DNA of 64,000 bases, from the NCBI RefSeq assembly GCF_963676485.1, contig NZ_OY781114.1, positions 1,302,001 through 1,366,000 on the forward strand. The letters run 5' to 3'. Origin of the DNA: an uncultured Cohaesibacter sp. (lineage in GTDB: Bacteria > Pseudomonadota > Alphaproteobacteria > Rhizobiales > Cohaesibacteraceae). Positions 31,434 to 35,888 of the stretch are shown piece after piece. Position 1 is the first letter of the stretch; the number at the start of each line of letters is the position of its first letter. The notes under the pieces are model-generated. The model was given only the letters and a program-made list of their open reading frames with translations. It did no database searches and was not told the origin of the DNA. A program made the translations under genes and the position numbers.

Positions 31434-31443
31434 TGTCGCAAGC
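31434..31443 (+). promoter_or_regulatory. Porin leader site complementary to putative sRNA loops
   Basis: TGTCGCAAGC, 27-36 nt upstream of the porin ATG, is an exact 10-nt complement of the loop motif repeated at 33842-33857 and 33906-33921. Confidence 0.4.
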
Positions 31444-31469: not shown

Positions 31470-32603
31470 ATGAACATCAAGAGCCTCATCCTCGGTTCTG
31501 CAGCAGCTTTGGTTGCCGGCGGCGCAGCCCAGGCAGCAGACCTGCCAGTAGCAGAGCCTGTAGATTATGTAAAAGTATGCGACGCTTATGGCGCTGGCTA
31601 CTTCTTCCTCCCAGGCACCGATACCTGCCTGAAGATCAGCGGCTATGTCCGTACTGAAGCTCGTTTTCAGGAAGGCAACCGCGCTGCTGACAAATTCAAC
31701 CTCTGGGCACGTGGTCAGGTAAACTTCGACGCTAAAGAAGAAACCGAACTGGGCACTCTTGCTTCTCGCGTTCGTATCGAAGGCGAACATGACGGTAACA
31801 TCAAAATTGCTAAAGCATGGTTGTCTTTGGGTGGCTTCTATGCTGGTTACCTCTCCTCCGGTGGCATTGTTGACTATGTAGGCGACATGTACGGCGGCGA
31901 CTATGATCTGGGCGATATCGATGTTGCTCAGATGGGCTATAACATGGCCTTCGGTAACGGCGTAACCGCTACTCTGGGTATCGCAAACACCCAAAACCTT
32001 GGCGACCTGAACGGCACTGCCACCGGTGATGGCTTTGCTGGTCAGTCCATGCCTACCGTGGTTGCCCGCTTGAAAGTTGATCAGGCTTGGGGTTCTGTAT
32101 CTGTTGGCGGTATCGTTGGCGAAGCTCGTTATAGCGATGCACAGTATGACAACGACGTTGTATATTCCGTAGCTGCAGGTGGTATCTTCAACCTCGACAT
32201 GCTGTCTGCTGGTTCCAACTTCGCTCTGAACGGCTTCTACACCAAAGGTGCAATGGGCTGGAACGGCATCAACGATTCAACCTACATGGCTGATGCTACC
32301 CTTGATACAGCTAAAAATGAGTACGAACTCAACGAACTGTATGGTGTATCCGCAAGCTTGAAATATGCTTTCGCTGACAACCTGTGGACCGTTATTTCCG
32401 GCGGCTATGCTGAATATGACGATCAGGGCGCAGCTAACGATTTCGATCAGTGGACCGCTTCTGCAGAACTTGGCTACAAGCCAGTTAAAAACCTCAAAGT
32501 TATCGCCGGTGTCCAGTATACCGATCGTGACTTCGAAACTGCATCTACCACAGCCGACTATGACAATTGGGAAGGCAAACTGCGTCTGCAGCGTGACTTC
32601 TAA
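31470..32603 (+). CDS. Outer membrane porin, Omp2b type
   Basis: A 377-aa outer-membrane porin of the alphaproteobacterial Omp2b family (PF02530). It has a signal peptide (MNIKSLILGSAAALVAGGAAQA), then DLPVAEPVDYVKVCDAYGAGYFFLPGTDTCLKISGYVR with the paired family cysteines, followed by beta strands to the terminal RLQRDF. Codon choice (GCT, GGT, GTA, CTG) differs from the neighbours and suggests very high expression. The ATG at 31470 has AGGG 8 nt upstream. It is followed by a strong terminator. Confidence 0.93.
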   Translation: MNIKSLILGSAAALVAGGAAQAADLPVAEPVDYVKVCDAYGAGYFFLPGTDTCLKISGYVRTEARFQEGNRAADKFNLWARGQVNFDAKEETELGTLASRVRIEGEHDGNIKIAKAWLSLGGFYAGYLSSGGIVDYVGDMYGGDYDLGDIDVAQMGYNMAFGNGVTATLGIANTQNLGDLNGTATGDGFAGQSMPTVVARLKVDQAWGSVSVGGIVGEARYSDAQYDNDVVYSVAAGGIFNLDMLSAGSNFALNGFYTKGAMGWNGINDSTYMADATLDTAKNEYELNELYGVSASLKYAFADNLWTVISGGYAEYDDQGAANDFDQWTASAELGYKPVKNLKVIAGVQYTDRDFETASTTADYDNWEGKLRLQRDF

Positions 32604-33360: not shown

Positions 33361-33532
33361 CCTGCTTGCGACACATCCCCTGCGACACGAATGTGCTTCC
33401 CCTGTTTTTAAAAAATCTGGACTGCAATATCGCCTATCGTCGAAATATATTAACTTTGGCGATTAAAATTATTTTTCGATAAGGAACAATATACGAAATC
33501 CTGAATACTGTAAATTTTTTTCCCCTTAAAGA

Positions 33533-33561
33533 TTGACAATCAATGTCTGTTTGTCTATTTT
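33533..33561 (+). promoter_or_regulatory. Sigma70-like promoter of the putative sRNA
   Basis: TTGACA (33533-33538), a 17-bp spacer and TATTTT (33556-33561). An imperfect palindrome GACA-N5-TGTC (33535-33547) overlaps the -35 box and could be the operator of the divergent TetR regulator. No credible coding region lies downstream before the convergent opp genes. Confidence 0.55.
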
Positions 33562-33747
33562 CATCTTACACAAAATGTCATTTCGTAATGGCGCTTTGGT
33601 CAAACACCCTCTAGTTGCCAGTTTGTAATTGGAGTTTGGTTTCCGAAAATGCGCCGACTTATGACTAAGCTCTGAACGCAAATAGTCGGTGCATCATCAT
33701 TTGGATGCGAAGATTTTTTGATTGTTTTGGAGAAGAGTTTCAATGTG

Positions 33748-33781
33748 CGGCATATTAGGAATTTGAATTCCTAATATGCCG
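33748..33781. repeat. Perfect 34-nt palindrome
   Basis: Arms of 16 bp (33748-33763 and 33766-33781, starting CGGCATATTAGG) with a 2-bp centre. There is no T-run, so it is not a usual terminator. It lies between the promoter and the two-hairpin RNA. Confidence 0.85.
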
Positions 33782-33827
33782 AAACATAGAGATACCATTT
33801 GATGCTGCGTCAACAGCTTGAATGGTT

Positions 33828-33949
33828 ACAGTCTGTCCACCTTACTGCTTGCGACACATGGTGGACACTGTCGTCACGGGGCGAGTTTGGTTACCTGTCT
33901 AAGCTTTACTGCTTGCGACACCTGACGGGTAGTGCTTGCTCCGTGACGA
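33828..33949 (+). ncRNA. Putative two-hairpin antisense small RNA
   Basis: Hairpin A (33828-33871): a 12-bp stem with a 2-nt bulge around an 18-nt loop. Hairpin B (33871-33949): a 16-bp outer stem (three G.U) and an 8-bp inner stem (33892-33899 with 33924-33931) around a 24-nt loop. Each apical loop contains the same 16 nt, TTACTGCTTGCGACAC (33842-33857 and 33906-33921). The loop is complementary over 15 nt to the tetR translation start region and over 10 nt to the porin leader. RNA ends are unknown; a promoter lies at 33533 and there is no clear intrinsic terminator (a weak hairpin at 34041-34056 is the best candidate). A 72-codon TTG-start frame covers the region but has no family features. 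Repeated protein-binding DNA sites are the main alternative. Confidence 0.5.
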
Positions 33950-34217
33950 AATTTATATCAGCAGAAATTTTCTTTGAAAAGCCCACCTACAAGCTTTCAG
34001 CAATTGTCACATTGTAAATTCGTCGTATCGGGCGGTTTATGCGCGTTTTGACGCGCCTTTATCCACAGACGCAAGGCGAGATTCACGCTCAAATGCCATT
34101 AAGGTGGCGAACCAGCAGCATATCTATACTGGCTTTTGCCAAGCCGAATCCTCCCAACAACACCGTGTCTAGCCCCTCATAGGCCAAGCTATGTCCGTCG
34201 CAACCATGTTGGGCGCA

Positions 34218-34244
34218 CAAAAAAAGGCGCCGTTGCCGGCGCCT
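34218..34244 (-). terminator. Terminator of the opp operon
   Basis: A perfect 7-bp GC stem (34225-34231 with 34238-34244) is followed on the minus strand by TTTTTT. Confidence 0.85.
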
Positions 34245-34268
34245 CTTGTTCGTTCTTAAAGGGGATGA

Positions 34269-35888
34269 TCAGGCAGAGATCGGCTCCAGATCGAATGCAG
34301 CAGCCATCAATTGCTTGGTATAGAGTTCTCTTGGCGCATCAAAAATCTGCTCCGTCAGACCCTCTTCCACAATCACGCCCTGCTTCATGACCATCACATA
34401 ATCAGACATGGCCCTTACGACCGTCAGGTCGTGCGAGATGAAGATATAGGAGAGGTTGTTCTTTTCCTGAAGATCCTTCAGCAGATCAACGATCTGCTTT
34501 TGTACTGATCGATCAAGAGCGGATGTTGGCTCATCCAAAACCACGATCCTTGGTTTGAGCACCATGGCACGCGCAATGGCGATACGCTGGCGCTGCCCAC
34601 CGGAAAATTCGTGCGGGTAACGGTTGCGCATGGAAGGATCAAGCTGCACCTCCTCCAGCGCTTCTATGGCTCGCAAATCTCGTTCCTTGGACGACAGTTC
34701 CGGATGATGCACCAGCAGACCTTCGGTGATGATCTGCCCGACCATCATGCGCGGAGACAAGGAGCCAAAGGGATCCTGGAAGACCAGTTGCAGACGCTTG
34801 CGGTGTTCCCGCATAGCTTCTCCCGCGATCTGGCTCATATCGACACCATCAAGCAACACTTCGCCGCTGATATCCGTCAGCCGCAAGAGTGCCCGCCCGA
34901 GGGTGGATTTTCCTGAGCCCGATTCTCCCACGATGCCGATTGTCTGCCCTTGATGCAGGCGAATATCAACATTGTTGACCGCGCGCAGCACATGCGTCTG
35001 TGATCCGAAAAGACCCGATGTGATATTGAAGTTCACATTGACGCCCTTGCCTTCCAACAAGATCGGTGCGCCCGTATCCGGCGCTTCCTTGGTCCCTTCC
35101 GGTTCGGCAGAAAGCAGCATTCTGGTATAGTCATGGCTCGGATTGTCGAAGATTTCTGCAGTGTTGCCTTCTTCGACCACTTCCCCGGTTTTCATCACAT
35201 AGACTCGATCGGCAAAGCGCCTGACGATGTTGAGATCGTGGGTGATGAAGAGAATGGCCATGCCCAGTTTTTTCTGAAGATCTGCCAGCAGCTGCAGAAT
35301 CTGGGCCTGAATGGTGACATCCAGCGCTGTGGTCGGCTCATCGGCAATGAGCAGATCCGGATCGTTGGCAAGCGCCATGGCGATCATCACGCGCTGCCGC
35401 TGCCCACCCGACATTTCATGAGGATAGGATTTCAACCGATCTTTAGGCTCGGGGATCCCCACCAGCTCAAGCAGCTCCAGTGCACGCGCCATGGCTCTCT
35501 TTTTGTCCATTTTCTGGTGCACGCGCAATGGTTCGCAAATCTGCCGTCCGATGGTGTAGAGCGGATCAAGCGAGGTCATGGGCTCCTGAAAGATCATGGT
35601 CATCTTGGAACCACGATATTTGTTCAGTTTGCGCTTGGAGAGCCCCAGAATCTCGGTCCCATTATATTTCACCGAGCCTTCCACCCAACCATTATCGGCC
35701 AGAAGGCCCATGGCGGACATCATGACCTGGCTTTTGCCCGACCCGGATTCTCCAACCACGGCGACCGTTTCGCCCTTTTCGATATGCATGTGAATGCCGC
35801 GCACGGCATACACATCCTTGTCGCTATTGGTTTCAAAATGCACATGCAGATCGTTGATATCGAGCAGAGGTGTTTTGGTATCTGTCAT
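34269..35888 (-). CDS. Oligopeptide ABC transporter, fused ATPase (OppDF type)
   Basis: A 539-aa protein with two complete ABC ATPase domains. Domain 1 (about 6-260) has [18 protein letters not shown] and [12 protein letters not shown]. Domain 2 (about 275-530) has [18 protein letters not shown] and [12 protein letters not shown]. It equals OppD and OppF in one chain, common in rhizobia. It energises peptide import through the two permeases encoded upstream. AGGAG precedes the ATG. It is the last gene of oppA-oppB-oppC-oppDF. Confidence 0.95.

Follow-up and report, generated by a model that had tools for sequence, protein, structure and literature searches.

Two adjacent hairpins between a TetR-family regulator gene and an ABC transporter gene raise the question of why stems of different sequence should carry the same 16 nucleotides in their loops (Table 1). 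They lie in the window, the 64,000-nucleotide stretch at C1:1302001-1366000 that was analysed here from the genome of an uncultured Cohaesibacter, a marine bacterium. The original prediction was a multi-loop antisense RNA, and comparison across the genus supports that reading, with stems covarying around constant loops and mRNA leaders complementary to them. We consider it probable that the locus encodes a new small-RNA family, whose same-seed loops would pair with the leaders of TetR and porin mRNAs and lower the expression of both.

Table 1. Features of the locus and of its predicted targets
Feature	Position	Strand	Basis and remarks
Porin a gene	31470..32603	+	Pfam Porin_2; beyond TetR gene
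TGTCGCAAGC in porin a leader	31434..31443	+	10 nt complementary to loops
TetR-family regulator gene, 192 aa	32782..33360	-	Pfam TetR_N
Site 1 in TetR leader, ATGTGTCGCAAGCAG	33362..33376	-	15 nt complementary to loop A; ends one base before ATG
Site 2 in TetR leader (weaker), GTGTCGCAGG	33379..33388	-	Sequence; in 5/9 orthologues by alignment reading
Predicted TetR gene promoter, TTTACA-17-TATTGT	33486..33514	-	Promoter scan and alignment
Inverted repeat ATTGACAA / TTGTCTAT	33532-33558		Overlaps predicted RNA promoter; candidate TetR operator
Predicted RNA promoter, TTGACA-17-TATTTT	33533..33561	+	Promoter scan; conserved position
Upstream hairpin (helix 1)	33744..33786	+	Covarying: changes on both sides in 8/16 pairs
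Second upstream hairpin (helices 2, 3)	33794..33826	+	Covarying: changes on both sides in 4/8 pairs
Hairpin A	33828..33871	+	Loop with TTACTGCTTGCGACAC at 33842-33857; fold and covariation in 10 genomes
Hairpin B	33872..33948	+	Second 16-mer at 33906-33921; fold, covariation, unpaired probabilities
ABC transporter ATP-binding gene	34269-35888	-	Other flank of RNA interval, opposite TetR gene
Porin b gene (core porin)	C1:523830-524897		Elsewhere in genome

The repeated loop sequence and the predicted fold

The 16-mer TTACTGCTTGCGACAC has exactly two copies (0 mismatches) in the 5.08-Mb genome, both in the adjacent hairpins and 64 bases apart, and the longest repeat in 1000 mononucleotide shuffles of 33828-33949 never exceeded 12. 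The twin occurrence that had been noticed in the sequence is thus borne out as a genome-unique pair beyond what shuffling produces. Both loops read UUACUGCUUGCGACAC. The fold also reproduces the shapes first described, with a stem of 5+7 = 12 bp and a 2-nt bulge in hairpin A, and, in hairpin B, an inner stem within an outer one of about 16 bp. The region 33828-33949 as a whole folds at -57.4 kcal/mol (z = -5.1), a value that none of 200 shuffles reached, and hairpin B alone (33869-33949) gives z = -6.5. Hairpin A alone folds weakly (z = -1.2; 25 of 200 shuffles as low), and its being no better than many shuffles speaks for a chance repeat on chance hairpins without function; we find that reading scarcely credible, as it is contradicted by the repeat statistics and by the covariation and distribution described below.

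The 16-mer was originally thought to be exposed in both loops. This holds for loop A, where the majority of bases are open by predicted unpaired probabilities, but only in part for loop B, in which 5 of the 16 motif bases (GCTTG) are predicted to pair with TAAGC (unpaired probability 0.01-0.06). Since these GCTTG/TAAGC pairs are invariant, the genome comparison is neutral here and argues neither for nor against the pairing.

A conserved structured RNA and its strand

Hairpins A and B were aligned from ten genomes (nine distinct rows). Of the alignment cells, 97.1% are paired, compared with 31-48% in slid controls, and changes on both sides occur in 11 of 42 pairs, against a shuffled mean of 3.0 and with none of 500 shuffles as high. 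Further pair types are unremarkable in this alignment (99 of 500 shuffles as high). The wider region, aligned from nine genomes, shows both-side changes in 15 of 66 pairs (shuffled mean 8.0; 0 of 500 as high), and its further pair types, 30 versus 39.4 in shuffles, lie below every shuffle. In 10 of the 18 Cohaesibacter genomes (loop spacing 63-70) the stems have undergone compensatory changes around a constant loop core. As judged by sequence comparison, the region is therefore a structured RNA, for which the plus strand gives the best reading. Compensatory stems around conserved loops, the pattern that the original prediction had proposed to look for in related genomes, are therefore present, and the opposite outcome, in which the stems are lost and the 16-mers kept, did not occur. 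The structure had been described as two hairpins; A and B are confirmed, but the conserved structure is larger, with two more covarying hairpins upstream.

The consensus energy is -57.9 on the plus strand versus -36.0 on the minus strand, and 13 versus 10 pairs show compensatory types. As the minus strand also has compensatory pairs, the strand assignment depends mainly on the energy and the target orientation; a minus-strand RNA was rejected on its worse consensus energy. A coding region was rejected as well: a 72-aa open reading frame runs over the hairpins, but the repeat copies stand in different frames, and indels in two genomes (G012 and G014) break the frame.

Distribution in the genus and searches for known families

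A covariance model of the RNA matched 10 of 298 genomes, all of them in the genus (E 1e-15 or better in 10 of its 18 genomes), and matched none of the 280 genomes outside it at E <= 0.1. This search used stricter filters; a genus-only rerun with laxer filters returned the same ten at E 1e-15 or better and few other matches, with E above 1, the best E in the remaining eight genus genomes being 8.4 (in G013). Orthologues of the TetR gene (71-100% identity) are present in 9 of the 18 genus genomes, and all nine have both hairpins. The tenth twin-hairpin locus (G015) lies beside a porin gene, with no TetR gene seen at the locus. G015 carries two more single seed copies in predicted hairpins (L140, G015:C42; L141, G015:C51), near TetR genes that are 36-39% identical to that of the window.

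In the RNA-negative genomes, a 19-mer was searched for with at most 3 mismatches; the six of its matches that were examined all lie in open frames of at least 146 codons on one strand, and the regions examined contained no further intergenic RNA bearing the 11-mer seed. A 20-mer scan found a single copy in an Acidobacteriaceae MAG (L208), which was taken as chance.

No family of Rfam 15 was matched in the window at its gathering score. A looser search of 33361-34260 (E <= 5) gave eight weak matches, seven between 34107 and 34260 and the eighth a plant-type microRNA model on the upstream hairpin. A known RNA family was rejected on these grounds, with nothing at gathering and the weak matches mostly near a terminator-like hairpin further downstream. 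Rfam contains MicF and MicC, and homology to either is not indicated by any match at gathering, or at E <= 5 over 33361-34260. Full-text literature searches gave no publication on such an RNA in Cohaesibacter among the matches listed.

Complementary sites in the TetR and porin leaders

The 13-mer CTGCTTGCGACAC has three copies in the genome, namely loop A, loop B and the TetR leader at 33362; with one mismatch allowed it occurs at 8 places, versus 4 for the reversed pattern. The TetR mRNA at site 1 reads AUGUGUCGCAAGCAG-G-AUG. The longest complement between the RNA and the TetR leader is 15 nt, and at most 11 in 2000 shuffled leaders. Seven of the nine orthologues have site 1 unaltered over GTGTCGCAAGC, and in G004 the site has a G-U-compatible form. 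It is absent in G012, where the loop A extension is CACAG instead of CACAT. The two distant TetR genes of G015 have no TetR-leader site.

Among the 30 porin genes found in the 18 genus genomes, 27 have TGTCGCAAGC in their leader, and the three further porins have no exact 10-mer there. The site stands at -80 to -84 in porin b (18/18 genomes) and at -34 to -36 in porin a (9/9 genomes). At least 13 nt of the porin b leader are complementary to the loops; the site is extended by GCAGTGAA, with GCAGATG in four RNA-lacking genomes. A putative promoter, TTGAnC-16-TATTGT, a few bases upstream would place the porin b site at the 5' end of the message, and an element TATTGTC..TTGTCGCAAGC is common to the porin a and b leaders near the predicted start, RNA-lacking genomes included. 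The porin b leader has an additional hairpin, GCAGTGA/TCACTGC.

The porin b site is kept in all eight genus genomes where no such RNA was found. Its conservation can hence not be credited to the RNA, and a factor other than the RNA may act there. In a tree of the porin b proteins (midpoint root, long branches flagged), the ten RNA-positive genomes fall within a group of 12, of which G006 and G016 are negative, so that two changes are needed. This is most simply explained by a porin site that came before the RNA, with an origin of the RNA inside the genus and at least one loss.

A protein that recognizes the repeated sequence as a DNA site, be it this TetR or another regulator, would make the hairpins minor or incidental. 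Such a protein would fit the presence of the porin b leader site in 18/18 genomes irrespective of the RNA, its position inside the wider element shared by porins a and b, the small inverted repeat TTG-TCG-CAA in the porins, and the arrangement of the three CTGCTTGCGACAC copies in the window, which repeat in direct orientation on one strand. We nevertheless consider it unlikely. Both 16-mer copies sit in the loops of stems that covary in ten genomes, and in G015 the letters of these stems are largely different; the loop and TetR versions are non-palindromic; the three leader classes are all antisense-oriented to the RNA; the matches of loop A and loop B extend differently; and the site is found in genomes without a window-type TetR.

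The seed occurs at other places as well. The 10-mer is over-represented in the window genome (23 versus 1 for the reversed pattern), its 23 places being the 2 loops, 1 TetR leader, 2 porin leaders and 18 others, which are mostly in open frames, several of them antisense to the gene. The 11-mer is commoner than its reverse across the 18 genus genomes (123 versus 8 in sum), and 20 further 11-mer places in G001, G003, G004 and G010 are mostly in open frames. GCTTGCGACA and TGCTTGCGACA are far above their reversed patterns genus-wide, mostly inside genes. TGTCGCAAGCAGT lies in an apparently non-coding stretch in two genomes (L202, G010:C25 near 108695; L203, G003:C1 near 377429) and could be a further target.

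Fit of each loop to its predicted target

Whole-RNA duplex energies disregard self-structure; they were followed by loop-only energies, with loop ends chosen by us and 500 shuffled loops per row. Loop A and the TetR leader gave -22.0 to -28.0 kcal/mol in 8 of 9 genomes, no shuffle being as good, and were at chance level in G012. Loop B and the porin b leader gave -27.0 to -32.7 kcal/mol in 10/10 genomes, again with no shuffle as good, and either loop with the porin a leader -18.3 to -19.1 in 10/10 (for G015, with the nearest counterpart of porin a). The TetR leader is better fitted by loop A than by loop B in 8 genomes, and porin b by loop B in 10/10, the energy difference between the loops being 0.4 to 5.7 kcal/mol. 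The match to the TetR leader is extended by CACAU for loop A, and that to porin b by UUUAC for loop B. In G015, loop B has changed from U to C and from C to A, and both changes improve the match to an unchanged porin b leader, which then forms 17 pairs by program and 18 by direct reading.

With whole-RNA duplexes, shuffled leaders were as good as that of TetR in 0-8 of 200 cases in 6 of 9 genomes (19 in G003, 64 in G012 and 68 in G004) and as good as that of porin b in 0-5 of 200 in 9 of 10 genomes (18 in G012). Values for porin a were unremarkable, at 34-100 of 200 in 10/10. Thus these energies single out porin a in 0/10 rows, and do not single out TetR in G004 and G012.

The loop-specific extensions, together with the 15-nt match at the start of the adjacent TetR gene, also bear on whether this structured RNA might work in a different manner, for instance by sponging another RNA or a protein, with the leader matches secondary. 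Identical repeated loops would fit a decoy too, and since the porin b site is either older than the RNA or has persisted after its loss, it may be recognized by another factor. Both features of the matches speak against a sponge, as does the lack of any other intergenic RNA with the 11-mer seed among the regions examined in RNA-negative genomes, and we regard this explanation as improbable. Pairing of the loops with the TetR and porin leaders is the reading followed below.

Predicted promoters and a possible regulatory circuit

The promoter scan found 3 promoter-like sites where 1.8 were expected. Because this count is near expectation, the weight is carried by position and conservation: TTGACA stands at the place of the RNA promoter in 11/11 TetR loci looked at, followed by TGT(C/A)TAT. 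TetR repressors use inverted repeats of the kind ATTGACAA / TTGTCTAT. Terminator prediction gave no clear terminator immediately after hairpin B. The genome encodes Hfq.

In the mechanism that we propose, the plus strand within about 33.57-33.95 kb would encode a structured small RNA with presumed transcription and ends, and the antisense seed UGCUUGCGACAC would be displayed twice, once by hairpin A and once by hairpin B. Loop A would pair with 15 nt of the divergent TetR mRNA leader and block its translation. Loop B would pair with approximately 16 nt (G-U included) of the porin b mRNA leader, so that porin b would most likely be lowered; porin a, with a 10-nt match only, would be less affected. 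The model assumes the positions of the porin transcription starts. The RNA may in this way shift which porin is made, similar to MicF, and silence the local regulator, the sign of regulation being presumed. TetR probably represses the RNA, as a TetR-type inverted repeat to which it is predicted to bind overlaps the predicted promoter of the RNA. Repression of the RNA by TetR and pairing of the RNA at the TetR start would form a double-negative loop, which we infer and consider plausible. Comparison among the genomes supports the structured RNA, its strand, the constant loops and the complementary leaders.

Tentatively, and as a possibility rather than an expectation, the locus could be a self-contained porin-switch module in which a two-headed RNA acts together with a porin and a TetR repressor. 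One loop would silence TetR and the other the core porin while TetR represses the RNA, so that the cell would toggle between two outer-membrane states; the RNA would have arisen in the genus to match an older porin b 5' sequence. The locus lends itself to testing whether an RNA and a transcription factor form a double-negative loop, and whether an RNA has evolved towards an unchanging target site inside a single genus.

Relation to known small RNAs

According to the reports cited, alpha-r14 / NfeR1 (SmelA075, SmelA099) of rhizobia carries one and the same loop motif on the differing stems of its three hairpins, and NfeR1 and NtrBC make up a double-negative loop through pairing at the translation start (PMC10746234; PMC3927594). 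LhrC of Listeria is described as carrying redundant seed motifs in two loops plus a single strand (PMC4132741). The initial view that no described small RNA has this layout is therefore not upheld, as both alpha-r14 / NfeR1 and LhrC, in these accounts, repeat one motif in several loops (PMC10746234; PMC4132741). The Cohaesibacter RNA shares with alpha-r14 / NfeR1 one unpaired motif repeated on differing stems. However, the alpha-r14 / NfeR1 motif, as described, is a general anti-Shine-Dalgarno sequence, CCUCCUCCC, whereas the Cohaesibacter loops (UUACUGCUUGCGACAC) hold a gene-specific seed of 13-16 nt that those RNAs lack, and the Cohaesibacter RNA has two seed-bearing hairpins, is confined to one genus and has no Rfam match. 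From its different motif and the absence of an Rfam family at gathering, we take it not to be a member of alpha-r14 / NfeR1. With LhrC it has in common the redundant seeds in two loops of one RNA; LhrC differs, in the account cited, in that its motif is of the UCCC type and directed at a G-rich site before the start codon, and in its Gram-positive host; the two RNAs share no sequence.

MicF and MicC of Escherichia coli are reported to be encoded beside one porin gene and to pair with the 5' region of another porin mRNA, which they repress (PMC5745476). Similarly, the Cohaesibacter RNA lies near porin a, beyond TetR, and is complementary to the porin b leader. Compared with MicF and MicC as described there, it has two seed loops, a TetR gene between porin and RNA, and the TetR mRNA as another predicted target, and its predicted pairing with porin b is far upstream of the ribosome site. 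It shows what marks a trans-acting small RNA, i.e., a conserved structure with an apparently accessible leader-complementary seed, loop B being predicted to be only partly open. In our view it represents a new small-RNA family that resembles alpha-r14 in its layout and MicF in its targets. The repeated-motif layout and the kind of target are already known; the family, its gene-specific seed and the targeting of a porin together with its local TetR appear new. The family, unmatched in Rfam 15, has two same-seed loops whose flanks fit different messages. Through it, MicF-like control of one porin by an RNA encoded beside another would be known from an alphaproteobacterium too, and nothing indicates a common origin.

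Other features downstream of the RNA

A strong G+C-rich hairpin at 34225-34244, between the RNA and the ABC transporter gene, is terminator-like on the plus strand; it is preceded by a run of A and is perhaps a terminator for the minus-strand gene. This hairpin is the source of weak Rfam matches such as STnc40, below gathering. Closer to the RNA, at 34059-34067, stands the DnaA-box-like sequence TTATCCACA; 5 of the 9 genomes aligned have it unaltered, and TCCACA is kept in 9/9.
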